Assembly: GCA_014281115.1 (NCBI GenBank)
Contig: JACONQ010000009.1
Coordinates: 930,001-994,000 of the forward strand
Reading direction: 5' to 3'
DNA from: Laburnicola sp. R22_1
Lineage: Eukaryota > Ascomycota > Dothideomycetes > Pleosporales > Didymosphaeriaceae
Length of the DNA: 64,000 bases
Shown: one piece after another, positions 3,120 through 43,100 of the stretch
Position numbering within the stretch: position 1 is the first letter of the stretch
Layout: each line of letters starts with the position of its first letter
Translations under genes and position numbers: made by a program
Notes under the pieces: model-generated
Told to the model about the DNA's origin: nothing
Databases searched by the model: none
What the model saw: only the letters and a program-made list of their open reading frames with translations

Positions 3120-3405
3120 TGGATGGGGAGGAGGTTGCGGATGGTGATGTTGGTGGGGTGTGAGATGCGAGGGCTGATGTTGATAAGGAGTGGGTTGCGG
3201 ATACTATCGTTGGGTAATGTGGAAAGGGAGGGAGCGCGAATGGGGATATGGATGGGAAGGGAGTTTCAGGCCTCGCCCGGGATACTGATGTTCAGATGGA
3301 GGGATTTGCGAATACTAATGGTTATATGGAGGGAGTTGCGTATGCTGGTGTTGATGAGATGGCGCGAATGCTACTGACGATAGGCAGTGAGGTACAAATA
3401 CTAAT
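3120..3405. repeat. Degenerate G-rich minisatellite
   Basis: Loosely repeated units of roughly 50-57 bp contain variants of GGAGGGATTTGCG and GCGAATACTAATG on the plus strand. The repetition produces long but meaningless open frames on both strands. No start context, splice sites or domain are present, so I treat it as non-coding. The neighbouring small insertion at 3406-3468 sits at its right edge. Confidence 0.45.
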
Positions 3406-3480
3406 GTTAGGAAGAGAAACATCGCAGACCTTTTGGTATACGGTACAACGCTGTAAGGGAAAGCTGTCACAAATACTAAT
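3394..3480 (-). mobile_element. Mini-element site A: 63-bp insert, 12-bp direct repeats
   Basis: ACAAATACTAAT occurs at 3394-3405 and 3469-3480 and flanks a 63-bp insert. Read on the minus strand, the insert starts GACAGCTTTCCC and continues through GTACCGTATACC to ATGTTTCTCTTCCTAAC. It matches the insert at site D (about 40.7 kb) at 57 of 59 positions and is clearly related to site B (8559-8617). The flanking repeat is less decisive here than at the other sites, because AATACTAAT motifs also recur in the adjacent minisatellite. Confidence 0.6.
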
Positions 3481-4668
3481 ATAAAATAGCAATAAGACGC
3501 GAATACCATTTTGAATAGAGAGTTAGTCATGAATGGTAAATTGGAACCTGTAACAGGGCATCTCGTATACTGATTACTGATTACACATCACGAAGTCGCA
3601 ATGCAAGGCGGACGGTATAAGCCACCAGGCATTTATCTCAGAGGTATAAGTGCCCGCTACAAACCTCACAATACAACATTATACCCATCATCAACAACAT
3701 CAACACCACCCAATCAACTCAAAAAACTTCAAGATGCCTTCTACCTAAGCAATCAGTACCGTCCTACTCGCCTTCATAGCCGCAGTACTACCTCCTCACC
3801 CCCCTCAACGCTGAACCAACGAAACACTAACACCTACCGACAGAACTCGGACAACCCGAGCGGGACGCAGGACCTGGATGATGACCATCAAATGACGTGG
3901 CTCCGGGAGGAGAGCGGACAGGTCGTCATTGATGTTTTTCGAAAGAGCGATGGGCCTACGGGTGGGGGTTGTGTAAGTGCTTCGCTGGGTTTGGGGTTGG
4001 TTAGGGGTGGTTGGGGGTGGTGCTAATTTGTGGGTGGTAGGATACTACGCAGACGCTATTTGGGGCTCAGGGGTAGAGCGTGGACGGGAGAGTGGTGGGA
4101 GAGTGATGAGAGTTGGGGGGGGGGGAGGCTACGTCGATGTCACGTTAACTTTATCTCACTGGGCAAGGACTCGAAGGGGGTCGTAGAAGCCGGTTTCAGA
4201 CACGTAGATAATGTATTCGCCAGTAACAAGTGCATTATCTTGATGCATGCCCCATCCTAGCACAAGAGCAATACTAGCATATATATACCATACCGCGCAC
4301 AGGGGGGAGTTAGTATAATTCTTATATTCTTTTGTAGCCATTTTTGATAGGTTCATAATATTATACTACACGTTTATGACCTTTTTCTAATTAGACGTAA
4401 AAGTTATTAGAGGGGTAAATTATTTTAACATCATATTAAGGAGAAGGCTTAACCCTGACAGCGATGTAAGAGCTTTCAAGGAGCACCGATATTACATTTT
4501 TTGCGGTGGGCAAAGAGAGCTTTCTTTCGTACCGATCTAATGTCTCCGACCAGCTTTTTCCTTTGGCCTGGCATGCGGGCCCAACGTGCATCCGTTTCCG
4601 AGAGAAGTTTTGCGAAAGGACCATCTGTTATCTGTTCGCACACAGCTTGGCTTGTACACATCCAGTAA

Positions 4669-4702
<34 letters not shown>

Positions 4703-4786
4703 ATGCATGATTGTGTTTACTTTTGCTGTGTTGATTTGACAAGTGTTCTGATTGTGGAATGTATGATATGCTCTAGATCTAGGATT
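3481..4786. other. Gene-free stretch with a ~28-nt poly(A) run
   Basis: No supported gene. An open frame starting at 3601 is Ser/Thr/Pro-rich, and a neighbouring frame has a short hydrophobic stretch (about 3750-3790) resembling a signal peptide but interrupted by stops. It might be the wreck of a small secreted protein gene. A run of about 28 A at 4672-4699 could mark the 3' end of a retroposed sequence or be simple slippage. I found no matching target duplication around it. Confidence 0.4.
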
Positions 4787-7152
4787 TCATCTGAGCATTG
4801 CTGACTTCTGGTCCTCATCATTGAGTTCCGTAAATGCATGATGTTCCAACTCTTCCCTGTCTTTCACAGGCAGATTTGATAACTCGGGTTCCAGTATATC
4901 TGCGCAAGTGTAACCACTGCGGCAGGAAAGTGCCAAATATAAACATTTCCAAAGATTCACTTGCTGAACCCATCCCTTTGCCATCTTACTTAAGGATCTG
5001 CTGATTTTCGAATATGCCTTTTGCTGCAGGAACATTTCCACGCTGATTTGATCCGATCCCAAGAATTGATTGAGCCAATCCAATAACTTGCTCAAGCGGT
5101 TCTGATCTCCGAAGTTGTAACAATCACCCGGCATGTTCCCAGAACCAAGGGCTCTCCTGGTAAGAGCTAGCTGTCGTTCTTGGGTCAAATTATAGAAGAG
5201 CCTCGAGATGGTTGGTATATCGGCGATCTGTCTACCGTCCAGTGTTTGAAGAGATGCTTTTTTCCATCTCTTGAGATCTTGCGGTGAAACTTCCACTTGT
5301 GTTTTCGTGACAGAGGTGCCACCTGAGATGTCTGACTCGCAGTTAGAGTCGTTTCCGCTTTCGTTTCCTGTATCTGTGTCAAAATCCTCTGGAACATCTG
5401 AGTCGCGATCAGAGTCGTCTTCGCTATTTGTTCGTGCGTCTGTTTCAATACCCTCTGTCCAGTCCACATGACTGCCTTCACTGTCCTTTGACTGCCAACT
5501 GATATCGCTATCTTCTTCTGTGCCCGGAAATGGACCTTTATTCGAGTCTTCACTGTCGTTGTCGCTACTTGCAGCCCTTGAGCTGAGGTTGTTATTGTTG
5601 TCCTGTTCCGTGCTTTGGAGCACACGGGATGAGCTTCTGCGATCACATCCAGATTCTTCCAGTTTAGTAGACTCGAGGGATTTTGTGATGAGATCAATGT
5701 TAGCTTGTTCATCGAGCGGAGCATCCTGAGCCTGATGAACCGTTGGAGTCTCAGAGTTCCTCTGAATTCCTGGACCAAGTCTACTGAGAGCTTGGAAGAT
5801 AAAGGCTTGAATCTTTGGTTTGAGAAGTCGTGAAGCCCATACGTGGGCGTTCATGATGATTACGCGAAGGGCCGCAACTCCCCACGTCAATTCGACAGTG
5901 GCAGACCAAATGCAAGTCATGCGCTACGATACGTTAGCTCTGTATACATTGCTTGCACATGGAACTGACTCGCTGTCTAATCCCGGACGAATCCACTGTT
6001 GTTTGGAACGCCAGCCACACCTTGACGTTGGGACCTATGCACGTGAAGACGATCACAGGTGGTAAGTTGAAGGAGCCGCTACAATCATGGTCGAACAATT
6101 GTGCTTGAAGCTCAAGTGCTAAAGCTGACGCATTAGCAGCTTGGCAGTAACACTTCTCGACGGTAGTCTTCAAATTTTCAGCATCTGGCTTCATCTCGAC
6201 AACAGCCCAAGGGAAGCAAGTGAGCCTCGAGGCACTAATTCTTGCTTTGGTCTTTGAAGCTTTCATCCATTGTTGTAGCCCAGTCGTATGCGTGCAAAGC
6301 ACGCCGTTGCTGTTCAATTTCCCGAGCGCCGGGAGCGAAAAGCATTGTCTAAACTCGTCTCTGTCGAAACCATGATAGCAGTCTTCTTGATCTTTCAGTT
6401 CATGTAACATTGGAAACGCGTAAGTTAGATCAGGTTTCGGTTGAGTAAGGTTCGATCGGGATGACTTTGGCCTCCGCGGACCTTGAGACCACAAATCCCA
6501 TTGGAGATCTTCGTAACTGGGCATACATATCAGCTTTATGGACAGATGAAAGCGGGAATGGATTAATTACAGTGACCAAGTATCTAAAGCTGGACTTCCC
6601 CACGATTAGCATATGCATATGTGTTGTATGGTGCTCCTAAGGCTCGACATACTCAAATCCCGGTTGCATGCAAGCATCATCGCTGGCAAGTGTGAAAACC
6701 TTCTGCCTCCAAAAACAACTCCATCCGGATTCTGGATCGTTCAGCAATTTACGGGCGTTCTCTGCTGTCTTCTCATCTCGGTCCAGCTTGGCTGCAGCAG
6801 CCTGACATCCCGCATGAAGATCTGCATTCTGGAACCTTTTTAAAGCTATGATAGCAGATTTCGGTAGGTTGACATTGGAAAGCGGGTCAGTCGACTTGGG
6901 CCGAAATTCTGCAATTTGTTCTTTCAGATGGATCTCCCAACCCCCTGGTGGCACAATATTATTGAATGTCAAAAGTATCTCGCGAACTGCATCAACGTGA
7001 TCCGGAATTACGCAAGAATTTGTCGATTGAGACGGATCATAGACCTCCGTATCGTAGTGTATTCCATCCCGTTCGAGGTTTTGCCGCGTGAGGTCCCTTG
7101 TGTGGTCGTTGTTGGCCATTTTGGGTGAGACGTCTGCTAGACCACAACCCAT
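4787..7152 (-). CDS. PD-(D/E)XK nuclease-like fungal protein
   Basis: I model three exons on the minus strand: 7152-6653, 6516-5970 and 5923-4787. The total is in frame at 727 aa. The second intron (46 bp, GTCAGT...GCTAAC...TAG) is well supported; the first (136 bp) is less certain and might hide a small exon. The centre carries PDLTYAF, then FPWAVVEMK, then YCQAANASALAL and VIVFTCIGPNVKVW. The D...E-x-K pattern and the strand-rich order are those of the restriction-endonuclease-like fold seen in large fungal families of unknown role. After this comes a long acidic Ser/Asp-rich low-complexity stretch (encoded about 5300-5650) and a more ordered C-terminus. Actual nuclease activity is unproven. 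Such genes are often found near repeats, as here. Confidence 0.6.
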
Positions 7153-8198
7153 GAGCGCGCAATCTTTTGTAGTTATGTGCGGGCCGAAACTTCAGGCGAG
7201 CTAGTATGTGCTGCGGCACAGTCTGTGGATCCAACACTAAAACAGTCCTTTTAATCTAGAGACCCTTGCACCTGCATACAACCGACCAAGCTTGATCAGT
7301 AAGGAGCTCTTGACTGTAGTTGTAGTTTATGATACGAATGTACGGCCGCAGGGCATTATGGGCGAAATTGCATGCGTGCGTGCGCTCGATGCGATTGATT
7401 ACTAGAATCGCCAAACGCTTCTCCCTGGTATTCCTGATGGTTGTTCCTTCCCTTATGACAAGGGTTTAGATAGGCCAAAACGGCTAAGGTCAGCCACCAA
7501 GTCTCAGCGCCTAAGTGCGAGCTATCATTCGTCCATCAACAGGTGCATGTGATTATTCTGCACCCTCTTTTGATCTCCATTCCTCCGTTTTAGTTGAGGT
7601 CCTGGTGGTCTTTTTATAGTCTTCTTGGAGGTACTCAAGGAGAATTGTATTAGGAAACGCTACGAGGTTAGTTAGATCGCCAATTATGATGATAACTTTA
7701 TCCCGCCCGCCCTGTAAAGCAGCGCATCCAACGTATTGTAGTACAGGCCGTACTACAGCCTATAGTACAGCTCTTAAGGCGTAAAGATATAGCTATCCTC
7801 TAAGCTATAGCGTAGCTGTATTTATATATATTTTAGCTTATAGTACAGCTCTATAGTAGCCCCCCTTAGAGGGTTACTTTTTTTACTTAAGGGCTACTTA
7901 ATCTAGTTATATAACCTAATTATATAACCTAATTATATAACCTAATTATATAACCTAATTATATAACCTAATTATATAACCTAATTATATAACCTAATTA
8001 TATAACCTAATTATATAACCTAATTATATAACCTAATTATATAAATAAATTATATAATATCTATATATAGTATATAGGTTACTACAAACTATACTATAGT
8101 TATAGACTGTAATTTATTATTTTCAGGGGCTCTTATACGTACATAACGCCCATACAAACTATAGCGTATTACGCTACGGTGGAAACCCTGCTGTAAAG
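7153..8198. other. Intergenic AT-rich island
   Basis: There is no gene. From about 7700 the sequence becomes strongly AT-rich, with many TATA/TAGTAC motifs. The 14-mer TATAGTACAGCTCT occurs twice (about 7759 and 7838), and TAGCCCCCCTTAGAGGG follows. This looks like a decayed transposon fragment mutated toward A+T, consistent with RIP (repeat-induced point mutation), but the parent element is not recognisable. A tandem 13-bp satellite occupies 7904-8042. Confidence 0.5.
7904..8042. repeat. 13-bp AT-rich tandem repeat, about 10 copies
   Basis: The unit TTATATAACCTAA is repeated head to tail about ten times with almost no divergence, inside the AT-rich island. It has no coding meaning. The near-identity of the units suggests recent expansion, in contrast to the decayed surroundings. 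Confidence 0.9.
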
Positions 8199-8929
8199 TC
8201 ATCCCTTCAACCGCCGTCTTTTTCCTAACATTAGGCACCTTATCCTGCTCCTACATCGCCTGCAAAGCCACTCTTCGTCGAAATATACGCAGAATTGACT
8301 AACTAGATAGCTGTATTGCTCCACCTCTTCGACCGAGCTATAGACTGAGCCTTCGCCAGGCGGGTTTCGGAGCTCCTTGACCCTAATACTTCCATGCTTA
8401 AATCTGATATGCAACGAGTTATCGCCTTCGAGCGAGTCTGTGCGCATATATCCAGGAACAGTCCTTCGTGCTATGAGGATAAGTCTGTTTTTATCACTAA
8501 AGAGCTCGCAATCCAGAATAATTTTGTTGAGAGACGAATTTGACTTGCTACGCACAATCTGAAAGAAGACTTCGCGCACTCTCGGTACACGGTATAACGC
8601 TGTTATGGAAAGCTGTAGCTACGCACAATTGCCGTCAAAAAGGACGAGCCTTCTAGCACATCGCAATACGTGAGATCAGTTATCTAATAAGCTATGTTAA
8701 AGCTGGGTCTATAGTTACTAGTTCTACATCTACCCTTTATACTTAGAGAGGCTGTTCCTAGGGAGCAAGACCGACTCGCGCTATCGCTTCCTCGTAGGTA
8801 TTGTGCTCCGGTCTCGTCTAACTCGATGTCGCTCCTTCTCTTGCGCTGGACAATTGCTGCATTTCCTTTGTTGAAAATTCTAGACATCTTCTCAACCTGA
8901 CTGAGGTCCTCGTAAGTTTCCGTTGTCAC
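8199..8929 (-). pseudogene. Orphan gene interrupted by a mini-element and one stop
   Basis: Two open frames, 8929-8684 (starting MTTETYEDLSQVEK) and 8579-8199 (ending in CRRCRSRIRC...RRRLKG), become one frame if the 59-bp insert plus one 12-bp repeat at 8547-8629 are discounted. The numbers agree: the frame offset between them equals 71 bases. Only one TAG codon (about 8683) then separates them, and it could be a CAG mutated by a C-to-T change. The protein of about 240 aa is not one I recognise; its C-terminus is basic and has several cysteines. Either it is a pseudogene, or the insert is spliced as an intron and the TAG is the only lesion. No function is proposed. Confidence 0.45.
8547..8629 (-). 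mobile_element. Mini-element site B, a candidate introner
   Basis: GCTACGCACAAT at 8547-8558 and again at 8618-8629 flanks a 59-bp insert. Read on the minus strand, the insert begins TACAGCTTTCC and ends CTTCTTTCAG. A GT-AG intron can be drawn at 8626-8559 (68 bp): the donor GTGCGT lies in the duplicated target and the acceptor TTCTTTCAG is the end of the element. It falls between codons and changes the host frame only by one extra ATT codon. The last 37 bases are identical to the insert at site C (19479-19515). Confidence 0.75.
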
Positions 8930-10255
8930 TGCCTTTTATGTTCCTTTCCCCCACTACTCCTTGAGCATATGTGCCATCATCATCCTCTTTATCAAGACCG
9001 TTTGGGGACATGACTGGGCTTTGGGCACATCCACCTTAGCTGTTATTGTTGGCCCCAGAAGAGGAACTTGGGCTGTTGGGGGTCGGCAAAAGTGTTGGTT
9101 TGAGTGTTGGCTCATGATTGGGTATAAAGCTCTCTGCCTGTTCCTTAAACAGCCTTTACCGCTTTACTGAGTGAGTGTCTTCTAGCTATAGTCCTGATGT
9201 AATGACCAACAGCTCTCCCGAGGAGGTGATCGTGTCACTAGATAAACGGCGTGTTCTTTACGTGTTAACAGCGGCCTGTTCGTCACGTCGACGTTAATAA
9301 ATGGCTCATCCTCCACTGCACGAGGGTCTCGTTCCACACAATATCTAGTAATATCTAGTAATGGACAGTGTTTGACTAGGTAATAGGTGTCGAATGTTCC
9401 ATCGGACTTGAATGCTGGCTCGATCTCGGCTCAGATTTATTCTCGTTAAACATCCATCATGGGTACTTGTTTGATCTGCCTCATACACTCATGTAGCCCT
9501 GCTCGATAGCTATCCATTGTAGCCTTGAACTTGTCACTCTGTAAAACAACGGTCACTGAGTAATCAGAAGAGCGAATCCATTCACAGAACGTTACAACAG
9601 AATAGCATAGTGTCTATGGGACTGAGAAGGGCCAGCCTTTTTATCATATATGATGACGACAGTTGCCTTCTCAATGATACACAAGACTCTACTACGAAGC
9701 GATGTCGCCATGTCTGAAACTCCCGGGATCTGCTTCAGCTGGTGATCCAGCAGCCATGTCTGAGCTGGAGATACCAGGTGTGCGACCGCCCCGAGCCATG
9801 GTCATCGTGTTTGCAGACAGGTTGGCCGGGTCGAGGACGGCGGCTAGACAATTGGACGTGTTCGTTGGGGCTGAATAAACTATTGCGTCACGTTCCGTGG
9901 CCGAGTATCTGGTTAGCAAGGGGGCTGTGCAACCGGCATGCTTTCCCAGGCGTCAACCGGTTATCTATATGCAGCATCTCCAAGGCTGAGCGTGTGATCG
10001 TGGTGCAGTGCATGTGATGTGGCGGTGGCTTCCGGCGAGCTAGATTAGGCTTTACCGAAGTTGGTTAGTGCAATTGTTTGGGGAGGTGCGGCTGCATACG
10101 ATCTCATGACACTTAGACACGAACCTTTCAGCCTGCTCACCGCGATGCCACTTTCTCTCACTGCTACGCCCACTGCCATGACATTTCTAGCCTTCGCGTT
10201 AGGATGTTACTTCTCATCTCCTATGGTTTATCGTCGTATCTCTCTTTTTTAAGCT
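8930..10255. other. Intergenic stretch upstream of the HET gene
   Basis: I see no supportable gene. The short open frames between 9690 and 10020 on both strands are mutual shadows with no motif. The last few hundred bases before 10256 presumably hold the promoter of the HET-domain gene; the run CTCTCTTTTTTAAGCT just before its ATG is a pyrimidine-rich leader typical of fungal genes. Confidence 0.4.
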
Positions 10256-11932
10256 ATGTCGACGCTTCCAGCTGCACCTGGCGCTGAACGCCGCGCCCAG
10301 AAATGGAACTCTATGTATTTCGACGTGGGCCTTGTGAAGAGCTGGATTGCCACTTGCGAGCGAGTACATGGCAATGTGTGCTGCGGCCTTAGCACACCTC
10401 TTCCTCCAGGGTTTCGACTACTGGACATTAGCAAAATGTGTGTCTTTGAACCACAGGAGCCGCTTCGGTTTGTGGCTCTGAGCTACGTGTGGTACACACC
10501 CCTCGACAGAAAAGATCTTCAGCTCAGGGTCAATAATTGCGATCATCTTCAACAACCTGGCGGAATACAGATTTCAGAACTACCTGATGTTATATCAGAC
10601 TGCATAAACCTATGCAAAGCACTCGGAGAGCACTATGTGTGGGTCGACAAGCTGTGCATAGTCCAAGACGATAGTTCCTCTAAGCATGGACAAATAAGGG
10701 CTATGGACCGAATATACAGCATGGCTACCCTCACCGTTGTAGCTGCTGTGGATACAGAACTGTCAACTGGACTTCCGGGAGTTTCTGGCCGTCCACGTCG
10801 ATCTTCCTTGTACAACACCCTCAGCTCGAATGGTTATCCGAGCTTAAGGAGGGCTATCGAACAATCATCATGGAATACTCGTGGCTGGACGTTCCAGGAG
10901 TCTCTTTTCTCCTCAAAATGTCTTTACGTTACGGACTTTCAAGTTTACTTTGGCTGCCGTAAGTGGTATTGTGCAGAGGAGACGGGCGTAACAGCAAGTG
11001 CAGATCAGGGACTCCGACCTGACATACTGCTCGGATCTTGTAGTCTGACGTCAATACTAGACTACTGGCACCTTATAGAGGTCTATTCGACGAAGGTGCT
11101 TACGTATGAGAGCGATATCCTCAATGCCTTTGCGGGCGTAATGAACACCTTTTCAAACACTCTAAACAGCCGATTTCTTTTCGGGGTCCCAGAAGCCTAC
11201 TTCTCACGTACGCTGCTCTGGAACTCTCACTCTGTCAAGAAGAGAGAATTAGTGTCGGAAATACCTTCGTGGAGTTGGGCTGCTTGGAACGGGAGGATTG
11301 GGTTCACCGACCCCGATGATGATTTTGGCGATTTGGTGCAACCTTACGTTTACGAAAATGAGGAAAACGAACCTCGATGTCATCATGCGCTAGAAGATTG
11401 GTTTGCACATGACGGCGACTGGACCGACGACGCTTTCCGTCGCCCGCTTTCCCGTCGAGGGACAAACTTCAGTCTGTCATGGCCGCATGAAACCGTTGAG
11501 ATATGGAAGGCATGTCCTCAAAATCCTTGGAGTAGCGAAATTTACGCCCCAATTGCAGCCAGATTCCAGGAACTCGGTCGGAGTCACCCAGGCTCTGTTT
11601 TGTTCAACACAACTGTAGGACAAGTACGGCTCGATTGGCAGTATGCAGAATTTTATTCCGAGTTAGAAATACTCGACAACTTGGGTGAACCGATCGGTTA
11701 CACGAGTTGGATATGCTTCTCGGATGATTTGGGGGAGCTTGGAGCTCGCGGGATACACACTTTCGTTGTTTTGTGCGGGGCATTGCTAAAGATGCGACGG
11801 ACTCCTTGGTACTTAGGGGGACTGCTTGTTGAGAAACGGAATGGAGTCTATTACCGACTGGCGGCCGGATATATACAGACATCGCTGTGGCATCTCGCCA
11901 AGCCGAAGTGGGAGACCGTTGTTCTCGGTTGA
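10256..11932 (+). CDS. HET-domain (heterokaryon incompatibility) protein
   Basis: This is a single-exon gene of 558 aa. It has the HET signature blocks in order: RFVALSYVWY at residues 71-80, YVWVDKLCIVQDD at about 127-139, a YSMATLTVVAA-type block near 155-165 and WNTRGWTFQESLFSSK around 207-222. HET domains trigger cell death or growth arrest when incompatible hyphae fuse, and many are thought to act in non-self recognition more broadly. The conserved glycine that usually follows LSYVW is tyrosine here. The C-terminal half after about residue 300 has no domain I recognise. The gene stands alone between repeat-rich intergenic regions, a common setting for HET genes. Partner and specificity cannot be inferred. 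Confidence 0.9.
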   Translation: MSTLPAAPGAERRAQKWNSMYFDVGLVKSWIATCERVHGNVCCGLSTPLPPGFRLLDISKMCVFEPQEPLRFVALSYVWYTPLDRKDLQLRVNNCDHLQQPGGIQISELPDVISDCINLCKALGEHYVWVDKLCIVQDDSSSKHGQIRAMDRIYSMATLTVVAAVDTELSTGLPGVSGRPRRSSLYNTLSSNGYPSLRRAIEQSSWNTRGWTFQESLFSSKCLYVTDFQVYFGCRKWYCAEETGVTASADQGLRPDILLGSCSLTSILDYWHLIEVYSTKVLTYESDILNAFAGVMNTFSNTLNSRFLFGVPEAYFSRTLLWNSHSVKKRELVSEIPSWSWAAWNGRIGFTDPDDDFGDLVQPYVYENEENEPRCHHALEDWFAHDGDWTDDAFRRPLSRRGTNFSLSWPHETVEIWKACPQNPWSSEIYAPIAARFQELGRSHPGSVLFNTTVGQVRLDWQYAEFYSELEILDNLGEPIGYTSWICFSDDLGELGARGIHTFVVLCGALLKMRRTPWYLGGLLVEKRNGVYYRLAAGYIQTSLWHLAKPKWETVVLG

Positions 11933-12194
11933 AAGGGATTTCTGTAACTCGATCCGGCCTGCCACATCACCGAAGTCTCCATGATTGCAGGAGAAGGTTG
12001 ATGATTTCTGTCTGTTCCAATGTTTCACCTCACCATTAACTACTGGTTGAAATGTTATTCTGCGCATCCAGCAGCCACGCCTCACGTTATTGCTTTCAGC
12101 TTTGGCACAACACCACATGGAGCTGATTAGCCCATCACTCCCAAACTTTGCCCCAAACTACAAAGGTTGCTTCACCTGCTGGTGAGGAGACCCG

Positions 12195-12238
12195 TATAGG
12201 GCGGGGCCGAATTTTTCCCCGGGCGATATATGAGTCCC
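12195..12238 (+). repeat. GGGGCCGA...GGGCGATAT repeat, copy 1
   Basis: GGGGCCGAATTTTTCCCCGG followed by GCGATATATGAGTC resembles segments at 59279-59322 and 61341-61376. In those copies a T-run lies between inverted GGCCGA and TCGGCC/TCGGGC arms. As at 61.3 kb, this segment is followed about 20 bp later by a CAGT...GGACAAAAGT miniature transposon, so the two may belong to one composite unit. Confidence 0.45.
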
Positions 12239-12254
12239 AATGAGCGCCCCAAAC

Positions 12255-12347
12255 TACAGCTACTGGACAAAAGTTTAGCACAGTTGGCCTTCGTATCGCT
12301 TATCCTGGGGTAGCACATTGTCCTCAAGCTTTTGTCCTAGTACTGTA
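12255..12347. mobile_element. 89-bp Tc1/mariner-like MITE with TA duplication
   Basis: The element runs from 12257 to 12345 and is flanked by TA on both sides. The left end reads CAGCTACTGGACAAAAGTTT. The reverse complement of the right end reads CAGTACTAGGACAAAAGCTT, giving terminal inverted repeats of about 25-30 bp. TA target sites and CAGT...ACAAAAGT ends are those of the Tc1/mariner group in fungi. It is too short to code for a transposase. Related copies lie at 61391-61467 and 63107-63199. Confidence 0.7.
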
Positions 12348-12370
12348 CTCCCAATCCAATCTCGCTGCTT

Positions 12371-12750
12371 TACCTTAGTTTACTACGTTTCCCATCAACC
12401 CCGCTAGGTTCCTCACAGCTTCACCGTGTACTTGAAGTGCGCGAAGTGTCTTCTCTAAACTTTTAATTAAGATGTTAAGTGGGGCGTTTCTGCTTTACCT
12501 TAAGTTTCCTACGTTTTATAGAAACCACACTACGTCCCCTCGCAGCTTTATACCTTGTATCAAAGGTATGCAAAGTGTCTTCTCTAAACTTTTAATTAAG
12601 GTGTTAAGAGAGGTATTAATGCTTTGCCTAGTTTCCTATGTTTTCTAGCAACCACACTGCGTTCACTCACAGCTTTATACTATGTACCAAAAGTGCGCGA
12701 AGTGACTTCTCTAGACTTTTAATTAACACGTTAAACGTTAAGGGTGTTGT
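12371..12750 (+). repeat. Three ~125-bp tandem units containing the mini-element core
   Basis: Three head-to-tail units begin at about 12371, 12493 and 12623. Each has a (A)GTTTCCTACGTTTT-like start, CCACACTGCGTTC, then CACAGCTTTATAC...GTACCAAAAGTGCGCG, then TCTTCTCTAAAC and TTTTAATTAA. The middle portion (CAGCTT...CCGTGTAC...AGTGCGCGAAGT...CTTCTCT) is clearly related to the small inserts at 3.4, 8.6, 19.5 and 40.7 kb, but lacks about 12 bases present in those. No coding potential is apparent. Confidence 0.7.
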
Positions 12751-12877
12751 TAAAAATATCTTAGTATCAGGACTACAACATGTACAACGCGTACACATGC
12801 CGTACCCTCAGGTACCAACACACTACATGAACCACCAAATTTCCGCTACGTCCATAGCATCCGCATACCCATCTCAC

Positions 12878-15188
12878 CTACACATCCTTAACATCAACAA
12901 CCGTATCCCTACTCTCCGTCTTCCCCTCCCCCGCCTCCCCACCAACCACCGTCCCCATCCTCACCAACCCACTCTGCCTCCCCTCCCCCGTCGCCTCCAC
13001 CATCCTCCTAATATGCGGATGACTCACACTCCCCCTCTCACTATCCCTCCTCTCGCCGCGCCTCTCCCTCCTCGTCTGCGGCTGCACCGACCCGCCCATC
13101 CTTAACCGCATTCCCTCCTCCGTCGACAGCGTCCTATTAACAGGAGTGGGTTCGAATTTTTCGGCCGCGGCGGTGGCCGGGTCGGGGCTGGGCTTGGGCC
13201 GCAGCCAGCGGTACAGCTGCTTCGTTTTTAGGGCCCAGATGCGGTAGCCGAAGTCGGTGGAGAGGAAGCCGATGAGCGAGAAGAAGGGGACGCAGACTGC
13301 GGCGAGGGTGATGGCGAAGGGCCAGTAGGGGGAGGGGCTTTCGGGCATATTGGTCATGCCGAAGATGGAGGTTACGAAGGTTAGGGGCCTGTAGCGTCGG
13401 TCCCATGTCAGAAAAACACCACGCCACACCACACCACACCACACAGCACATGAACAACCAAGAAAAAAGAGGGGAGGCGCTCACATAAAGAACAAATTCA
13501 CAATAGTCAAGAGTTTTATATTCCGGCCCTGTTGGACCGTAATATCGGAGAGTTCTACCGACTTCCGCGACTCCTGGATGCTCGTGCCGGAGAAGAGGTG
13601 GTCTTGGAGCGACTCTATTTCGTGGCGGCGGTCGTTGTTTTCGCGCTGCAGGGTGCGGAGTTCTTGCATTTCGTGGTCGAAAAGGAGGCGGAGGAGGCGC
13701 AGGCGGCGCTTCCAGTGGTCGTTGCGGGGGGATTCTTCGAAGAGCGGCCAGAGGGTTTTGCTTTTGCCGGCCCAGACTTCTTCGGTGAAGGTGTCTTCGA
13801 AGGAGTCGATCATGGATTTTATGCTGTCGTTTACGTTACCGAGCTGTGCGTGTTTAGCTTCTTGGTGTAGGACTCAACGATGGGAGGAACTGACGGTTTG
13901 GTGGGCGTAGAAGTAGCGGCGCGTCCAGGTGAAGGTTTTGTCTTCGAAGAGCCGTTGGTCGCGCAGGTCGGCGTCGAAAATGAAACCTAGAGGAGGCGTG
14001 ATCAGGTGCGATATTCGCTTGTAGATCTCTTGATATCTCTTTCTAGCATCGCGATATTCTGTAAGCAGCGCGTGCAAAAACGCCTCAGGTCCGTTTAGAT
14101 AGCGATATCCCGATTCGAACGTATCTGTAGTAGCTCTCCAGTCGGGAAAGCACTCGAGTTGGAGCACCTGTTCGCGTCGTCAACATTCCGAAGACTCCTT
14201 CGTTCCATCCATGTTTCGTACATACCTGCCACGGGGACCAAATGTTCTGGACCCAGCCATACTTCGTTTGTGCTTTGCGACTCCTGTTTCGTATGCGCCG
14301 CGGTTTATCGTCGTACAGAGCCAATGCGACAACGGCACCACAGCGTGCCAACGGCAAGTGCGAGCCATTAGGCGCATCTTTGTCAGCGCGCTGCCAATCC
14401 ATCGGCTTGCAGTCCTCCCCCAGAATAGTGTAGTACTCAAACGAGAAAAAGAACGTCTTCTGATGCTTCCGATCCACACGGAAAGCGCGATGCATATGAG
14501 CCGACGAAGCCTCCGTCTGCACCAAATGCCTAAAGAGCTCGTCCATGTCAAAAACGTCGTGCAGAGTCAAGTGCAGGGCACCAAAGAGAATAGGCGCCGG
14601 CTCACGAGCTATGGTGATGCGGCCGACAGTTTGCTTATCCGGCCTGGTGCCGATGTTGCGAATAGCATGCCATATTTCTGTCGCCTTGGACATGGCATTC
14701 TGACTCCCGCTCGTCTCGACGAGCTCAGTGGTTCCATCTGGACCCACGTCGTAGACTTGGAAATGGGAATAGTGCGAGCGGTCGTCCGGCGGATCGGGCC
14801 CCAAGTGGAATAAATGAGGCTGCTTTGAAATCTTGCCCGGATCGGTAATGATAGGTGCTAATATTTCTCTGCCGTGCTCTTTCCAGTCATGGTTCTTTAG
14901 ATGCTCGCGGAGATGCTCGTGGTCGAACGATTGCGAGGGCAAGGGATCTTGGACAAAGTAGGATTCGTCTTCGGCGTCGGAATCTTCATCAGTGAGCGTT
15001 GCCGAGTCGGCAAACGCATGGCTGGGCCGATCTTCGCGGGTGGCGGTCCGGGGGAAAGGCGGCGTTTCCGGTGGTGGATTAAACGTCCCGGACGGGGAAC
15101 CGATAGACAGGGATTTTAGCAGGGCGTCGTGGGACCGTTGCAGAGACTCTAACTGCTTCCGAAGCTCTTCCACCTCGTTTGTGGCCAT
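12878..15188 (-). CDS. CorA-like divalent metal channel
   Basis: Four exons: 15188-14226, 14167-13895, 13843-13485 and 13388-12878, giving 701 aa in a continuous frame with introns of 58, 51 and 96 bp. The start is the ATG at 15188; upstream open codons lack an ATG. The N-terminal half is soluble, with a coiled-coil-like start (VEELRKQLESLQRSHDALL). The C-terminal part shows the CorA layout: a long charged helix (HEMQELRTLQRENNDRRHEI), the first membrane helix running into FVTSIFGMTNMP, and a second helix WPFAITLAAVCVPFFSLIGF, then a polar tail. FGMTNM stands where bacterial CorA has GMN, as is usual in fungal CorA-like proteins. Mg2+ is the default substrate, but other divalent ions are possible. 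The third intron contains a CCACACCACA microsatellite. It diverges from the amidohydrolase gene. Confidence 0.85.
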
Positions 15189-19465: not shown

Positions 19466-19528
19466 AGGGACTGTAAATCTGAAAGAAGACTTCGCGCACT
19501 CTCGGTACACGGTATAGGGACTGTAAAT
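19466..19528 (-). mobile_element. Mini-element site C: 37-bp insert, 13-bp direct repeats
   Basis: AGGGACTGTAAAT occurs at 19466-19478 and 19516-19528 and flanks exactly 37 bp. That insert is identical, base for base, to the last 37 bases (minus-strand sense) of the site B insert, ending at the same ...CTTCTTTCAG. Compared with B it lacks the first 22 bases, a truncation at one end only. It lies in the gap between the convergent nicotianamine synthase and SNF2 genes, in the probable 3' untranslated region of one or both. Confidence 0.85.
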
Positions 19529-30403: not shown

Positions 30404-31623
30404 ATGGCCGCAGCGGCGCAACAGCCGGATCGATCGCATCCACAGTGTATTGCTGGAAGCGCTTGAACCGGTCGAGAGTGCAGGTCCCTTTATAATCACC
30501 GACCTGCTGCATGTAGCACTCAAGTTTAATGATCATGGCTTCACCATCGATGGCGTGGGTGAGATTAATGCACCCCTCTCTACCGTTGGTGCGCAGAGCT
30601 TGGTGAAGACCGGCCGCCTTCCGCTGCTTGATGACAGCGACGAATTGCTTCTTCGTGGAAAGAACTGCAACACCTATTTACTTGACCCCTAAGATGTTCC
30701 ATTCGTCAAGGACAGCCTTTGGAAAACAGTTTAAAAGTTTCCTCGGATCAGTGCCGGAGCTGAAGACGTGGCAGTTGAAATGGCTTCGGGAAATCAGCGT
30801 TGAAACTGGGACTACAGAGCCTTCAAGTGGAGACGGCGGTCAACCAGCGGGCTTGCCACTACTCTCCAAATACCCCAATCGTAGTGCAATGGCTCAGTGG
30901 CTCTTTACCGGGTGCGTCGATCTATTGAAGCAACTGCCCCAGGTCTCAGGGTCGAACGTCTCATTATGGGGCAACCTGACAATATCCGATGGCCGGCTTA
31001 TCTTTGCGATGTCTTCAGGAACTGGTTGAAGCGTGCAATGACCTTGATAATGCTACGATTAGGTGGCATATCCAACGCATCGTCAACACTGTTGTAGAGG
31101 TTGGCGGTAGCAAGTGCTGCGTGCCATCCCTGACCAGAGAATCGTTCAGCTAAGCACTAAGCTCGAAATTGAGAGTCTGGCCCTACTCGTCCCTCTCTTT
31201 CAACCGATGGTCATTGATCTGCGCTTGATCATCGACTTCCTCCGCCATGCTGTTGACATACTTGCCTGGAAATCTTCACTGTTCTCAACAGACTTTCGCA
31301 CGGGAACAATCGAGCCGGCTATTGCCCTCATCTCATACATCAAAAACAAGTCCCACAATGTCTTTGGTGTGGCGCCATTGTTAGAGGATAATACTGTTCG
31401 TATTTGCGCACATAACACGCAATGGGGCCTGAGAGTTTCAGTCGCCACTTTGAAACAGCTCATCTTTCAGTTGCGTAGGTTCGGCTTGAAGCGCTGCTTC
31501 AATGCTCTGTTCCGATGGGTGACTCAATTTAAGGAGCTGTACCTCCATGAACTACGTTCCGTATTGTCCAGGGAGGAGTGGGACGAGTTGCAGAAAATCC
31601 CCATCAAAAAAGAAACAGCATAG
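30404..31623 (+). pseudogene. Decayed gene, N-terminus like fungal 2OG-Fe(II) oxygenase
   Basis: The plus strand shows coding-like sequence that changes frame several times. About 30430-30690 reads LLEALEPVESAGPFIITDLL, then GFTIDGVGEINAPLSTVGAQSLVKTGR. This is the pattern of the N-terminus of large fungal 2OG-Fe(II) oxygenase proteins (leucine-rich start, hxVDGVGxIxxPL, then AxxLI). It then meets in-frame stops (TAA near 30690 and 30744). A separate frame at 31114-31623 encodes a helical, motif-free stretch of about 165 aa. The expected HxD...H iron-binding motif is not visible. The locus sits directly beside a dispersed repeat. A pseudogene fits best. A spliced gene of unknown type is possible but I could not build one. 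Confidence 0.4.
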
Positions 31624-31686
31624 AAGTACGATGAAATGGGAAACAATGGAATTGTGTCAGTAAGGAAGGAGTTTGAAGGACGGATT

Positions 31687-31870
31687 TTTTTTTGTGAATA
31701 AAGCTGCATCCCGCAACTATACTATAGTAAAAGAAAATCTAGCTATAACCTTTTTTTCTGTGTACTAGCTCTATAAGATACTATGTAAATAAATACATGT
31801 GAAAGCGAACAGTTTATGAGCGCTCATGTGATCTGACTGTGGAGTGCCTGTGGGTCTCGGTCGAGACCGG
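31687..31870 (+). repeat. Dispersed repeat, copy 2 (first copy at 2213-2567)
   Basis: Collinear with 2213-2567: GTGAA(T/C)AAAGCTGCATCCCG, then AAAGAAAATCTAGCTATAACC, CTGTGTACTAGCTCTAT and finally GTGCCTGTGGGTCTCGG. It lacks the 130-bp segment found in copy 1 and has only one ATACTATAGTAA at that point, so it serves as the empty site for that insertion. The middle (about 31800-31830) is diverged from copy 1. Confidence 0.75.
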
Positions 31871-34800: not shown

Positions 34801-37800
34801 AAAACAAAAGGGCGAGGTGCGGAAGTCCGACTGCTCGTCGTCTTGAGGGGCCCTTGTGCAGCTAGATTGACGAGCTTCGATCGCTTTTCTGGAAGACGGA
34901 CTCGCTTGTTTGACAAGCCGTTCGTTCCACGTGCACGACGAGGTGGCCACGCGGCGAATCGCTTCAGCCTTGCGAAGGGCTGACATCAGAACCTTACCTG
35001 CGCTCTTGGTCCCCGAAAAAAGCTTGGGAGAGTATATTGGGATAGACCGGATGGGGACTAGCGGCGACGGAGCTTCTTCCAGTGTTCATGTAGGGTAGAT
35101 ATGCGACGGAGAAATGGGGAGGGGTTGATTGGAGCGGTAGACGAGTAGACGAGGGAGACAAGGAGGAATACGTGCAAGGTAGGTATGTACCTGGTACTAC
35201 CAGTGCTCGGGCATGCAGGTGAGACATAAGGACGCGAAAGAACGACCGGTCCGATTGCGAAGTCGGAGGGGGTTGGGAATTCGAAGATACGGAGGATGGA
35301 GGATGCGACGCGGACAAAGAAGGATGGACTTGGTGAGGCAGTTAACTGTAGTAGGTATGTACCATGCATGCTCACCGCAGCACTTCTACCGGTCGCTTGT
35401 TAGCTGGCTTGAGACAGTCGCTGCGCAGTAGGCAGACCACTTGTCACGACCGACCGACCAAATGACCGGCCTTAAAAGTCGGGCCTCACAAGACAGGCCT
35501 CCGCGATGTCCGATGTACTGCGCCCTTTGATTGCACGGCAGTGATCGGCCTCCACGCTACGTGAAGGCGTGGGTAACTGGAAATCCGAATCAGCGGTTCA
35601 TCCACGAGGGCGCCCCATTTGTACCACGTCTGATTTATAGACTCACCAATGGTCCGGCCTGTTTGATGGTTGCGCAATGAACCCCGCAGTCGAAATCTTG
35701 TGGAGAAGCCGGATCTATGACCGGATTTCGACATACATACGAGCAGCATTATCGTATGGGTGAACTTTCATGAGGAAGGGCGCTGGCGGCTACTATTATG
35801 GTACAAGGGTTCACCGCTACTTCCCCATCCATCAGCCGGCGAACCCTCAGCCCAACCGAACGCACGTCGAACCATACCCAGCTTTCTAGAAACGCGTTAG
35901 AAATAGCAGGCCCGCCGCTGTGGTTACCCCCTGCCTCGTTTCGGGGACCGAGTTGCTGATAACATTATCCTATTGCGGACGGAATGGTAGTTAATTCTAC
36001 GCTGAAGGGTAAGCTTTGCGGTTCAGGCGTGCTGTCTCAAATGAAAGCCATATCAAGTGGCGCCCAGGCTGACTGCAGGGCGCAGGCAAGACCCGCTCAT
36101 TAAACCTCATGAAGCCTGGTGTGGTTCGCATACAGCATGTGCTCCAAAAGAGAAGTTTACCGGACGGCGGGCGGGTGCGAGTCAGCGCGAAGCCAAAAGC
36201 AAATCAAGCCACAAAAGGTCATCGGCATACGGGATGAGCCGTCGAGAACCTGCGCCTTTTCCGCACGACCAGTCTTGCCTTGAGATAACGGCACGCCATG
36301 TTGACCCAGTAGACTGGCCATTGGACGCCGTACTCAAGATAGCCCATTGAACCACTGGCCGAGAGAGAACTTGCAAACCACGAAGGAAGAGGAGTGCGTC
36401 TGCGCACGTCTTCCGTTCAATTCAGCAAATTGCCTTACATCAAGGCGGACACGCTGGCGTGTGCAAGCTTTCGGCCGAGTGGGCCGTATCTGCAGGATTA
36501 TTGAGGTGTATGCGCCGCTGATGGAGAGAAGACGCCTCTGGAGTGACTGTGGGAAGGGCGCGGGGGATCGCTCGGTGGAGGCATTGGGGGCCATGGCAAA
36601 GAGCGGTATAGGTACGTACATGTGGTACAGTAGGCGCATGCACGCACTCCACAATGTCTCTCCCTACGCAATCTGGCACGTTCTCGCTAATCTACCCGGT
36701 TCGTGGACCAAAGATAGCTGAACGCCCGCGACGGGTCAGAGTATCAGATCGCGTTAGATCCGGTTAGGAACCAGTTTGCGCATACTTGCTCAGCCTATGG
36801 TATGTGGGTACCACTAGGTGGAAGTTGGAACCTCTGATGGTGCATGGAAATCGAGTTTGGCTGCTGTTCGAAGTGGCACATCGAAGCCTTGCGGGGGATG
36901 AACGACACGTGTGGACTCCACTTGACCACGAGCATGCATCCACAACACTAATTGGACCCTCTGCCGTTCGTCCCAGCTCGTTCGCATGTCTGCCTGCCGC
37001 TCATCACCATGGCTGTGGGTCTGCGATTCTCACGATAGCCCAACGACACCAACATCGCCGTAGCGACTTCGGAACGGAGACAGCAATGTGATGCATAGCC
37101 GCTTAGCCCTATGACCCTGGCTCTGTTTCTGGGGATAACGCCCGTGTGCTGAGGTCAATGCCTCCCTTCCCACAGTGACGGGTCCCATACCTCAACGCAC
37201 TACCAACCGACCGATAACGTGGTTCAACCCACGGCCGTGTATGACGGCCAGGCGTCCGACTATCTCGTGTAATTGCCTTACCGCCTAGCCCTACGGGGCA
37301 GCTGGATGTTCGGTGGTTTTTGTCCTACGCGCCCGAGACGATAGCAATTGGGATGAAGTCATCCACTTATCCTGTCGGCTAATTGACCAACCCAGCATCC
37401 TTCTAAGGCCATGCGGATCCGCTCCACACTGCCGAGTGATTGGCCCTGGATGCCTGCTGTTGTACGATGGTACACATGTACACACAAGTTCGCCAGCTCC
37501 TACGTCGCCAGTCGTAGTTCTTGAGACTCACATACTCTCATCAAGCCGAGGTCACAGCTTCCGGAGCCAAGCTCGTTCCCCGATGATCGGAGGAGCATGC
37601 TATACGCTGCACGTAAATCCTGACGCCGAGGAAGAGGCATAATACCTGAAGCAAGTGAGCAATAAACGGCTCGGTCGGACTCAAACTAGCCATTGTTCGT
37701 GAGACACAGCCACGGCCTGCTTTGGCGACATCAGATAATCAAGAAGCGTTCCAGAGTGTCGGGATAGTGTCGTCAGAAGCGTAGCAATGGCGTGCCGAAT

Positions 37801-38943
37801 CCCCGATACTCGGATGCTCGCAAGATGATTGCTTCAAGGAATGGTAGCCGAAAAGCGAGTAAGAAGCGTGACAGCTGTCAAAACAAGTTTAATGGTACAT
37901 AGCAGTGATAAAAAATCACACCCATTGGCGCACAATGCCCCGCAGTATGTGATACGCGACGCAGGAAATGCGTATGTACATGGATGGGCTCACCTGCTTA
38001 CAGTAAGACGAAAGTGGTCGCCGATGTTCGAGACCCGCTCTCAGTAGCGGCGCATCGGGGAAACAGGGTTTCGTAAGTAAGTCGTGCTATCAGGCTCCGA
38101 CTACATCTATTGCACCAGCATGAACCCCAAGCAGAACTAGAGAGGTAGCGCAGTGGCTACGTGCTCATCTAGGACATCTTCCGGAAGGAAGCTTAGCGCT
38201 TTTGCAGGTTTGTTGTTGCAAGATGCTGCAGTCACGTATGGGACCATCAAATTAGAGAGTAAAGCGAGAAAACCAATGTAGCAAGGCTATGACGCGGGAT
38301 GTACCGGACGGAGTAACTATCCGCAGTTATTGGTGGAAGCCATTCTCCATTCCTACCATCTTCATGCACACGGCATTGACAACACGCGCGACGAGATAGA
38401 TCAAGAAAGCCTTGTCTCTTGGGCATATCTATGCGATACTTCCAAGACCGGGTGTGATGAGTTGTTACTCCGCGTTCCTTCAAAGTTCAAGTCATCTGAA
38501 AAGTCGGAGCGAGAGGCAAGTCATGGGGCGCACCCTTGTCTCGTGTGGAGATCGCTTAGATGCGTGCGTGGGATGAGCGCAGACTAACGGGTTCGGACCA
38601 GGGCGGGCGGCGACCGTTACGAAGGACCCTTCCGTCGTCATTGGGCACGTTGCTGTTTCCCGTGCGAACAGGGAGGCTCTCGGCGCTTGTTACAATCGAA
38701 GGTGGACGAACTGTGAAATCACCGATTCCAGTGCTGGTGCAAAACCATAGCGGGGTGTTGTAGTATTTTCCACGGTTGACAAAGATGACATCAACTATGT
38801 TGAAGTTGGGAACTGCAGTATGGACATTGCCGTAGGTGTATTTAATCCAGGTCTGTACATCCGTGTCCCCAATTCCTGTCGCAAGCCATGCCACGTGGTC
38901 ACGAAGTCGTGCCCTAGAATACCCCAAATAAGATATTGAAAAA
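31871..38943. other. 7-kb gene desert with one AT-rich island
   Basis: I could not support any gene in 7 kb. Open frames are short, overlap on both strands and show no motif. 33.69-33.98 kb is strongly AT-rich (ATAATATTATTGTTACTAG and similar) and looks like a small RIP-mutated transposon remnant. It is bordered on the right by ACCGGAGACCGACCGACCGA near 34050. The rest is of ordinary composition, unlike typical RIP-decayed DNA. It may be old, diverged mobile DNA or subgenomic spacer; I cannot tell which. Confidence 0.45.
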
Positions 38944-40187
38944 CTACGAGGCTCGCGCAGGAACTTCTGTATGTTCCTGTGCATCTGCATCCACATCGTC
39001 ATTCCACTCATCGCCACCGCTTACTCCACTTACATGTGTCGTGTTTGCCGCTGGCGGCGCATCCAGACCATCATCGCTCTCGTCGTCTTCAAAAGCGGCA
39101 GGATCTGCTAATGGCTGGGCTTCTGGATCTGCATTTCCGGTTGCAGGTGTCTTGTGCCGAGGGGCACCATGCACGTCGTCGTCGGCCGAAACAGAGATAC
39201 CCCGGCGTCCCCACGCATTCTTGGGACGACTATCCGGGGCAGTTGGCCGGGCGCTCTCCTCTTCGTCGAAATCAAAATCCACACTCTTCCGGCCCACGAA
39301 GCGTCCCACAAGCCAACCGCGTCCTAGATCCTCGGAATCGACAACGCCGCCGCGCCGGAGCTTCACGCGCTGCCGGCTCCAATACACCCAGGCGAAGTCG
39401 ATTATGAGTGCAGTCTGGATGGTCCCCCACACCCACGATGTCGGGTCCTTGTAGTTGTCCTCTTTGGTTGCGCGGTATATCCAATTGAGAACATAGAGGA
39501 AGCGGTAGGATCCGAGCGCAACCAGGTAGAATGAGTCAAGCACGGTAGGCACGGTCGTTTGGCGTAGAAGCAGCAGCTGCGGGACAATGCAAGTACATTC
39601 CAGGATTTCGGAGAAGACCCAGAGAAACTGTCCACGCGACCTGTCAGTATTGCACAAAACCACGTCCGCTAGCGTAGTATATCCAACCCACCTTCAAAAA
39701 GCTGGGTTTGCCAACCCCCGTATTCTGAAATAGCCAGTACCAGAATGGCGCGATGACGATGGGTGCCAGGAAGCAGTACAGGCCAAACTTCCATGCTTTT
39801 TCGCGTTCTCGCGTGCGGGCATACACGCTAGTCATTATGAATATGATGTAAAACGAAGACAGGGTGTAGAAAATCTGTCTGCCTTCAGCCACATGTGGGC
39901 GGGGATGGTACGCGTCCATCTCACCTTCAGTGAGAATCTCCATGTGTGGCCGAAGTCACTTGTGGCCGAGGTGGTGAAGACATCGAGGTACCGCGTGCAA
40001 AAGACAACGGCGTACAGCACCTGGGTGATGAGGGAGACACCTGGAAGCGTGTCAGCGGGGGTGCCGTGGCCGCAGTTGGGCCGCGCCTACCTTCGGCGCT
40101 GCTGTTGCTGTGAATGGCCCATATCAGGATGAGCTTCGAGATGGTGTGCGAGACGTCGCCGAGGATGAGGAAGGCGTTGGAGCCCAT
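38944..40187 (-). CDS. ERD2: ER lumen protein-retaining (KDEL) receptor
   Basis: Four exons: 40187-40091, 40040-39925, 39874-39692 and 39627-38944, 359 aa, with introns of 50, 50 and 64 bp. The seven-helix KDEL-receptor pattern is clear: FLILGDVSHTISKLILIWAI, then SLITQVLYAVVFCTRYLDVF, FYIIFIMTSVYA, FGLYCFLAPIVIAPFWYWLF, WVFSEILECTCIVPQLLLLR, YLVALGSYRFLYVLNWIYR and TALIIDFAWVYW. The protein cycles between Golgi and ER and returns escaped ER proteins with C-terminal retention signals. The usual length is about 212-220 aa. This one has an extra cytosolic tail of about 125 residues that is acidic and rich in Asp, Glu and Ala (DDESDDGLDAPPAANTTHVS). The tail has no recognised domain and may belong to an ERD2-like subgroup of filamentous fungi. 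Confidence 0.92.
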
Positions 40188-43100
40188 GGTGCTTGTGCGG
40201 GGCGAGTGCTACGCAGCACGCGTCGAGCGCCGCCCGCGTGTGCACAGTAATCTGGCGTTGCGGTACCGGTGTGGGACGGCGGGGGTGTGGGATTGGCCGA
40301 GGGAGGCGGCTCGCTCCTGTGAATCAGTCTGGGTCGTGAATGTCGACAACGGGGACACCCGTAGACGTCGAAGGGCTCTGGTCCGACCCGGGCCTTGGCG
40401 GCTGACGACGCCCTAACCGCCTATGGCTAGCGCATGCTGACTGCACCAGTGGATGCAGGACCTCCGCAGGACCTCGCATCGTGAACGAGCAGCTGAGAAG
40501 CGCACTCGGCGGCACAAAACGCCTGGACCCGGACATGCTCGTCCCACGCTGCCGCGCTGAGAGAGGAGCCCGTACCAAGACGTCCAGCTAAGACTTCTGC
40601 AGCCTACGCCGGAAAGCACCTCCCAACACATCACCCCATGGCCCAGCTTGCAGGGACCCTTGGCATCTGCATGCTCGGTTGTCTGCCGGTACCGATCATC
40701 TAATCGACTCAGCACACCCACAGCTTTCCCTTACAGCGTTGTACCGTATACCAAAACGTCTGCCATGTTTCTCTTCCTGATCATCTAATCGACGCGCCGC
40801 ACCCGCCTGTGGCCCGCGGGCTCCGACTAGTCACGGGTTACTATGGTCGGACCTTCCTGAACCGCCAGTCGAGGCCAAGTATCTCAATGCTCTACACACG
40901 GAGTGCATCCGAACTGCTTCTGTAGACTGTCCTAAGGATCAATTGCATCCGACACCGCTCGTCTTGGTCCCCGGCAAGGCAACCATCCATCCGGTAGCTA
41001 CGTTGTTGTTACGCAACAGTGGTCAATGGGAGCCTTTGGGTCCACACTTGCAGTCGTATTTGCTGATGGCTGAAACGGATGCCCAGAAATCTGAGATGGG
41101 ACACGACTGAGCTGAGCCTGAAGCTCAAGAGGATTGCAAAATCCTTAGCTTCAATGTCGGTGCAGTCTGTAGCAGCTCGGGAGACGCGGATATCGACAAC
41201 ACAACAGAGCCGTAATGGCGGTACTACAGGTGAGCAGTACGCTCCATCGCTCATGCTTGGCCGTACTAAGCCCATGCAGATTGCGGCAAGCCCTCATCTT
41301 CGCTTGGTTCGCCCGAATCCAGGGCTTACGCCATGAGGATCTTCAGAATTTCCTGTCAGAAATGACCAGTCTCAGCCACCCAGGACCCTGGATATGCAGT
41401 ATGCAGGGTCTGTTCGGGATGTCATGCCTATCCAAACGCCCATAATGTGGGACCTTCACGAGTCCATGGTTCGTTGAAACCATCCAATCCACGGCGGATA
41501 GTGGACTCTAACCACTGGTACGTTGCAGGTCATGGAGCAATTGCAGCGGCGAGATGCGAATACCGGTGCGGTCCCCCGCCACAAGGCATGATGATTCCCG
41601 CCAGGATTCACTGCGAGCATGCCAGGCTAAGGACGTACAGCAAACATGGTAGACCTCGCACGGAAAGAGACCAACAGGCGTCCCAGTGGCGAATGCATTT
41701 GTTCTTCCTCCAAAGGCAGCCCTTTGATGTTTCAACACCGGGCGAGAAACTCTGAACGATGCCCGATTATCACTAAGATACCCTCCGGCGCTATCCAGTG
41801 AATTCTTGTTCATATGATCACCGACCAGTGCAGGAATGCATCTGCATGAAATCCACGCATGCTATCAAAGCTGAGAGCTACTGGGTGGCTTCTCGCTATG
41901 TCGACCATGGCAATTCGCAGGATAATATTGCCACCTGACGGTGCGACTATCACGAATGGTAGTCGATCGACAGTATGGTGCTCATTTTGCTTCAAGCCGT
42001 ATTGGCGGAGCTGCGCATGTCGACTAGATAAGGTCATACCAAGGCCACGATAGGATTGGACGGGCCTGCCGGGCCTGATGTGTCCCGTGTCCCCCCGTCC
42101 GACCATCTGCAAGTCGCTTACTTCATCGTGGCTTGTCGGAATTCGACTGTCGAAAATAACAAAGGAGGCGAACGTCAGCGGTTTTCCGATAACGGCCGGG
42201 TGAGACATGCTCAGAACAACCGATCGGAGCACGTGTAGATGTTTCGGATTGAACACCGCCGACACGGAGCTTGCATAGGCGAACTTTGGTTAGTCACATT
42301 TCAGCACCGGGGACCAGCGACAGTGCAGCCATCAGAATAGTCTCTTCGCAGGATGAGGCAAAGCAGCCGGCCAACCGTATTATGAAGGCCCCTCTTAGCC
42401 GCCATAGCCAGAATTGTGGTCCTTGCCTGGATGATCAAACGGTTGCTTGACAGCGCGAGTCATTCTGGGGCTGGCTGCAGGTAGATGCAAGCACGGCTTT
42501 GCAGTTGCAATGAAGCGTCGCTAGACAGATGCAGAGAGTTGAAACCGTCGCTGGCGGCCCAGTGACTGCGGCAGTGCCTTATCTGCTAGGGCTGATGGAC
42601 AAACTGGTGGTGCTGGATTGGAGTTGATACGGTCGAGGCGTACCCTGGTCGGACTCCGGTAGACTGCGTAATGGTAAGACAGGATGAACATGTCACTAGC
42701 TTGAGCACGTGGAGCAGGCGAAGATCGTATCGTGGGAATGGGACTGAAACGATGGATCACTGACCATGATGCGCGATCGAGAGGGCAGGGAGCCCACATG
42801 GCGGTGGCGCGCATCGGTGGAGGATGGCGAAGCAGCCTCACTGGAACTGAGCATGTCGCTTGAGGGCCGTCCCTCGACGAGCTGGACAGGGAGGCTGAGG
42901 CTAGTCGTAGCGTAGCCGTCCCGTACTGTGTAGTAGAGGGCGTGGAAGAGCTGAGGTCGGACGCGAGCGCGGCACCGGATACGGCGAATTAGTGGCCTTT
43001 GGCCTGCGGCATGGCGCCGTGGCTGTCTCAACGGCCATTACGACCGTGGTACGAAGCGCCCTCCGACCGCGAGCCCTTTCTGGGTATTTTGTGGCCATTA

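Follow-up and report, generated by a model that had tools for sequence, protein, structure and literature searches.

Short retroposons and the inserts of the window

Foxy and Mg-SINE are tRNA-headed short interspersed elements (SINEs) of fungi. Target-primed reverse transcription by an enzyme of the long interspersed element (LINE) type leaves a combined footprint: the nick site is rich in A and T, and the copies, uniform at the 3' end but ragged at the 5' end, stand between repeats of variable length. Four short inserts, sites A to D, are considered here in a stretch of 64,000 nucleotides from Laburnicola sp. R22_1 (the window, C26:930001-994000; the assembly has 26 contigs and 63.9 Mb). Very probably they derive from a non-autonomous SINE-like retroposon whose copies were cut short at the 5' end when a LINE-type enzyme made them through target-primed reverse transcription. 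Like Foxy and Mg-SINE the family is dispersed and apparently non-coding, with a fixed 3' end, variable duplications and 5' truncation, but no tRNA-like head was detected in it, its full-ended copies reach 1.3 kb with a variable middle, its truncation is strongly focused on 61 nt and no poly-A or simple-repeat tail was seen. With 5'-truncated LINE copies of the L1 or Tad-like kind it has in common the 3' fragments, the duplications of about 10-18 bp and the A/T-rich nick site, whereas no reverse-transcriptase gene was found joined to its ends and its truncation points are clustered and not smooth. The internally deleted LINE derivatives of trypanosomatids, RIME and SIDER, similarly consist of a 5' leader and a 3' tail without a coding middle, although a parent LINE sharing these ends was not identified here.

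All four sites described in an earlier note on this DNA were found again at their places, each within a perfect direct repeat. The sense direction lies on the minus strand for A, B and C and on the plus strand for D, and the inserts measure 63, 59, 37 and 70 bp within repeats of 12, 12, 13 and 15 bp that were located by a direct-repeat search. Site A (3406-3468) belongs to subfamily 1, is truncated at the sequence ACAGC with an extra G at the 5' junction, and lies between the 5' copy (3469-3480) and the 3' copy (3394-3405) of its target duplication, ATTAGTATTTGT on the minus strand. The subfamily 2 insert of site B (8559-8617), truncated at (T)ACAGC, has the 5' and 3' copies of ATTGTGCGTAGC at 8618-8629 and 8547-8558, and that of site C (19479-19515), also of subfamily 2, has those of ATTTACAGTCCCT at 19516-19528 and 19466-19478. 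Site D (40709-40778) is again of subfamily 1, starts with TCAGCACACCC upstream of the ACAGC point, and is enclosed by GATCATCTAATCGAC at 40694-40708 (5') and 40779-40793 (3'). The window has 14 places with perfect 12-bp direct repeats at a spacing of 45-95 bp, namely the four sites, eight places inside tandem arrays, a dispersed pair at 7761 and one place at 12922; the same search in 20 mononucleotide shuffles counted none in 18 and one in two. The sense-strand 3' junction had been noted as being followed by ATT in A, B and C, but the '...CTG|AT' pattern is not limited to these three, since element and target of D share the G that precedes ATC and D also fits it.

Short size and target duplications are also traits of introner elements, whose insertion creates a new intron, and B and C do end in a pyrimidine-rich stretch and CAG resembling a 3' splice site. 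However, none of the four inserts combines a GT start with an AG end on either strand, and the sense-strand ends of A and D are not AG, so that an introner origin is very improbable.

Copy number and the fixed 3' end

The relatedness of the four inserts through a common core is borne out by the genome, where the core 20-mer ACAGCGTTNTACCGTRTACC has 172 exact matches (90 on the plus and 82 on the minus strand; none for the reversed control), far above chance. Exact 3'-end patterns matched 122 times for type 1 and 116 times for type 2, again with no match for the reversed controls, these being counts of exact patterns that miss mutated copies. A genome-wide search with a 62-mer from site A gave 424 candidates, the best 40 of which were scored and listed. 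The 3' end is fixed and reads ...CTTCCTG, ...CTTTCAG or ...CTTGATC depending on the subfamily. Rather than self-contained 60-bp elements, A to D are the 3' ends, shortened on their 5' side, of a retroposon dispersed through the genome.

Target duplications and the probable nick site

A sample unselected for 5' length was formed by the first 31 of the 122 3'-anchored type 1 sites, being all of those on C1-C5 in a search with the last 20 nt. Beside the fixed 3' end a direct repeat with a score of at least 10 is present in 20 of the 31 copies, as against 6 of 620 trials with a shuffled 3' flank, and with a score of at least 8 a recognisable target duplication is present in 22. The target itself was tallied in the 40 copies, out of 63 analysed, with a repeat score of at least 11. 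Their 5' repeats start by preference at T|ATA, with T at −1 in 27/40, A at +1 in 33/40 (a figure partly forced by the search pattern), T at +2 in 31/40 and A at +3 in 33/40. In the same copies the repeats are 11-18 bp long, 14 bp being commonest (12/40), and across copies generally the duplications span 10-18 bp.

The fixed 3' end, the ragged 5' end, the variable repeats and the T|ATA preference together point to target-primed reverse transcription, and so uphold the mode of insertion proposed for the window sites beforehand. In such a scheme the template would be a retroposon RNA with a fixed 3' end and the target would be nicked at T|ATA by a LINE-type endonuclease, probably acting in trans. 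Reverse transcription would then run from the RNA 3' end at the nick, usually ending early, and joining to a staggered second cut would give the duplication of 10-18 bp; the stops would cluster at two distances from the 3' end, about 61 nt and about 96-101 nt.

A remnant of a DNA transposon, of a miniature inverted-repeat transposable element (MITE) or of a solo long terminal repeat (LTR) would likewise be short, non-coding and flanked by direct repeats. That origin is hardly credible given duplications that vary from 10 to 18 bp and a variable 5' end opposite a fixed 3' end, and the inverted-repeat score between the first and last 40 nt is 5-6 in seven full-ended copies, where shuffles of one copy (n=200) averaged 5.0 and went no higher than 9.

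Some copies have irregular arrangements. At the same point of L105 and L114 there is another insert of 34-42 nt (CCTTGGTTAGAAT...ACGACGAAGATCTTCA), which by eye has a 12-14 bp duplication around it in each copy and has no match in the window with up to three mismatches allowed. An inverted piece of its own tail is found in L069 (C11:1124516 region) within a single 11-bp duplication, TGATAGGCAAT, an arrangement that resembles fold-back or twin-primed copying. Antisense and sense pieces of the tail stand head to head within about 130 bp in L047, and near position 2937 of L056 a possible insert of about 20 nt, ending in the subfamily 2 tail GCGAAGTCTTCTTTCAG, lies by an imperfect GTGATGGAA repeat.

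Truncation hot spots

The clustered truncation is the unusual part of this family. In the 22 sampled copies with a repeat score of at least 8 the lengths are 34, 40, 46, 60-62 (ten copies), 78, 96-101 (five copies), 168, 174 and 183 nt. Ten copies in one 3-nt window were reached in none of 20000 uniform and none of 20000 exponential simulations, and for the remaining 12 copies five in one 6-nt window were reached in 99 of 20000 uniform simulations; the 60-62 group is tight and the 96-101 group looser. The sequence ACAGCTTTCCCTTACAGCGTTGTACCGTATACC, which site A holds at 3435-3467, has 46 exact copies in the genome, 28 of them preceded by the CCC of longer copies and 18 not. Twelve of those 18 were read, and 11 begin at ACAGC or at most 2 nt away, the other (L011) being a longer copy with a point change, while among the 28 the C's of L005 apparently come from the target. 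With these two weighed, roughly four in ten of the exact copies begin at the ACAGC point. In subfamily 2 site B has its break at this place too, and relative to it C is shorter and D longer.

The pile-up of 5' ends in 10 of 22 copies, together with the 18 of 46 exact copies in which no CCC precedes ACAGC, could also be read as the mark of a discrete mobile unit of 61 nt, in which a small RNA beginning at ACAGC, either processed or made on its own, would be the full template and most of the short inserts would be complete 'micro-SINEs', not truncations. This is unlikely, because copies of many other lengths have this 3' end and the duplications too, there is a second, looser hot spot at 96-101 nt and four long copies have no Rfam family match. 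Quite unlikely, too, is a development of the same idea in which a 61-nt RNA starting at ACAGC would serve as a stable template, giving a very small, independently spreading retroposon born from the larger SINE-like element by a fixed truncation point.

If the short copies are truncations, as we think, the stops would presumably be made by the reverse transcriptase. Pausing of the enzyme and copying of RNA that was already cut are both possible causes of the hot spots, and pausing is favoured because the other lengths share all else. The tail contains two imperfect repeats (GCTTTACC... and GCTTTCCC...), in which the two hot spots have similar positions; the alignment score of these hand-picked stretches was matched by 15 of 1000 shuffles, so that the correspondence is suggestive only. 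Folding of the RNA offers no explanation for the stops, the 169 nt of the L022 3' end having no unusual structure (z = 0.03). That short copies might be those that escape repeat-induced point mutation (RIP) is not supported, since C-to-T and G-to-A changes in 36 copies track AT-rich surroundings by eye and not copy length. Copies so short are easily missed, yet their ends would mark where a LINE-type enzyme nicked and stopped, and with hot spots at 61 and 96-101 nt it becomes testable whether the enzyme falls off at random, stops in a sequence- or structure-dependent manner or copies cut RNA.

Full-ended copies and the larger element

Read stepwise, the upstream flanks of copies reveal longer sequences of which the 60-mers form the 3' ends and which upstream reach a common, constant 5' end, (C)CCTCCT(G/A)GG(C/T)A. 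Eight copies, picked for having both ends and so no random sample, are L119 (308 bp), L078 (378 bp), L073 (450 bp), L068 (1239 bp), L091 (1300 bp), L092 (1315 bp), L093 (1311 bp) and L095 (2752 bp including a foreign insert). Inspection by eye finds direct repeats around the whole copy in all of them, perfect in seven and imperfect in L092. Among the best 40 of 343 matches to the 5' end and all 22 inner candidates, eight pairs lie on one strand at a spacing of 0.90-0.96 kb. End to end L091, L092 and L093 are similar at about 84-86% of aligned positions.

These copies speak against the claim that the family consists of tiny elements whose 60 bp fall below SINE size, because the inserts are 3' ends and the element itself, at 308-1315 bp, is not below that size. 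SINEs are usually shorter than about 700 bp, so that the copies of 308-450 bp fit and those of 1239-1315 bp exceed the range. The earlier note had held that its view would fall if all four inserts were fragments of one larger known transposon, and of this the full-ended copies bear out the half that asks for a larger element. The longest stop-free run among the seven uninterrupted copies is 153 amino acids, and their length of 308-1315 bp is too short for a full reverse-transcriptase gene.

Two of the full-ended copies are part of nested arrangements. L093 (C24:3220720-3222160) is inserted within the tail of another copy, with the repeat AACTACCTCTAGC. In L095 (C20:1148330-1151160) the foreign insert of about 2 kb has inverted ends, CACTCAACGCCC, and on the opposite strand broken frames that by eye are transposase-like; we take it to be pogo-like.

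Head, middle and partner of the element

The parent may have been an internally deleted LINE derivative made of a 5' leader and a 3' tail, in which case A to D would be LINE rather than SINE fragments. Both ends are kept while the middle differs between copies of 308, 378, 450, 1239 and 1300-1315 bp, and near the 5' end TATA-like GTATAAAC and CACGTGACGTCACGTG may suggest a leader of the RNA polymerase II (Pol II) type. Three stop-free pieces of L068, however, had no Pfam match above the cut-off, with two weak matches below it. Reverse transcriptases were searched for and, among the best 150 of 662 candidates, 22 matches spanning at least 740 bp were taken as LINE-like. By eye, none of the best 40 of 343 5'-end matches is within 10 kb upstream, on the same strand, of any of the 22. 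The only other neighbour, a reverse transcriptase by a 5' fragment on C14, was rejected as a partner, for it belongs to a gypsy-type LTR element. Such an origin is thus possible but doubtful.

A SINE-like retroposon remains the better account of A to D, and several results weigh against it. ARAGORN found no tRNA gene in eight long copies, and Rfam gave no match at E<=0.1 for the four long copies submitted; with neither, no Pol III head is shown, and a B-box-like GATCGACTC was recognised by eye only. No partner LINE came to light among the matches compared: three of the 22 LINE-like ones (L096-L098) have 3' flanks without similarity to the tail, and of the first 100 places each of the core 20-mer, type 1 and type 2 none is within 8 kb downstream of the 20 LINE-like matches that these places cover (all but C23:2292336 and C26:314890). 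The middle of L068 and of the short forms is unlike that of L091-L093. In nine of the 31 copies of the sample a clear duplication is lacking: L106, L108, L109 and L117 extend past the 185 bp read, L105 and L114 hold the nested insert, the repeat of L041 is imperfect, and none is visible in L102 and L110. The length sample covers type 1 3' ends, and the copies read are the occupied sites of one assembly. The family behaves as a SINE does, or as some other element carried by LINE enzymes, and need not be a tRNA-headed SINE.

Other repeats and genes of the window

At 12351-12740 on the plus strand three tandem units of about 127 bp are diverged relatives of the tail that continue past its 3' end (CTAAACTTTTAATTAAG...). 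They are probably part of the same element, and possibly an older relative or source locus. Just upstream, in 12151-12258, an 84-bp insert (12163-12246) of another repeat family sits between two copies of CCCCAAACTACA; seven other genome matches have the same left end and a variable right end, as if the family were truncated in the opposite orientation. A MITE-like repeat of about 93 bp, with inverted ends by eye (AAAGTTT.../...AAACTTTTG), occupies 12253-12350, accounts for 35 of the 43 matches listed and has a diverged copy at 63105-63195.

The only match of the window in Rfam is a tRNA. Its genes include one with a HET domain and an SNF2 gene resembling ERCC6L2, in keeping with fungal DNA, and tandem repeats of 36 bp are present within a MYND-finger open frame at 61779-62064.

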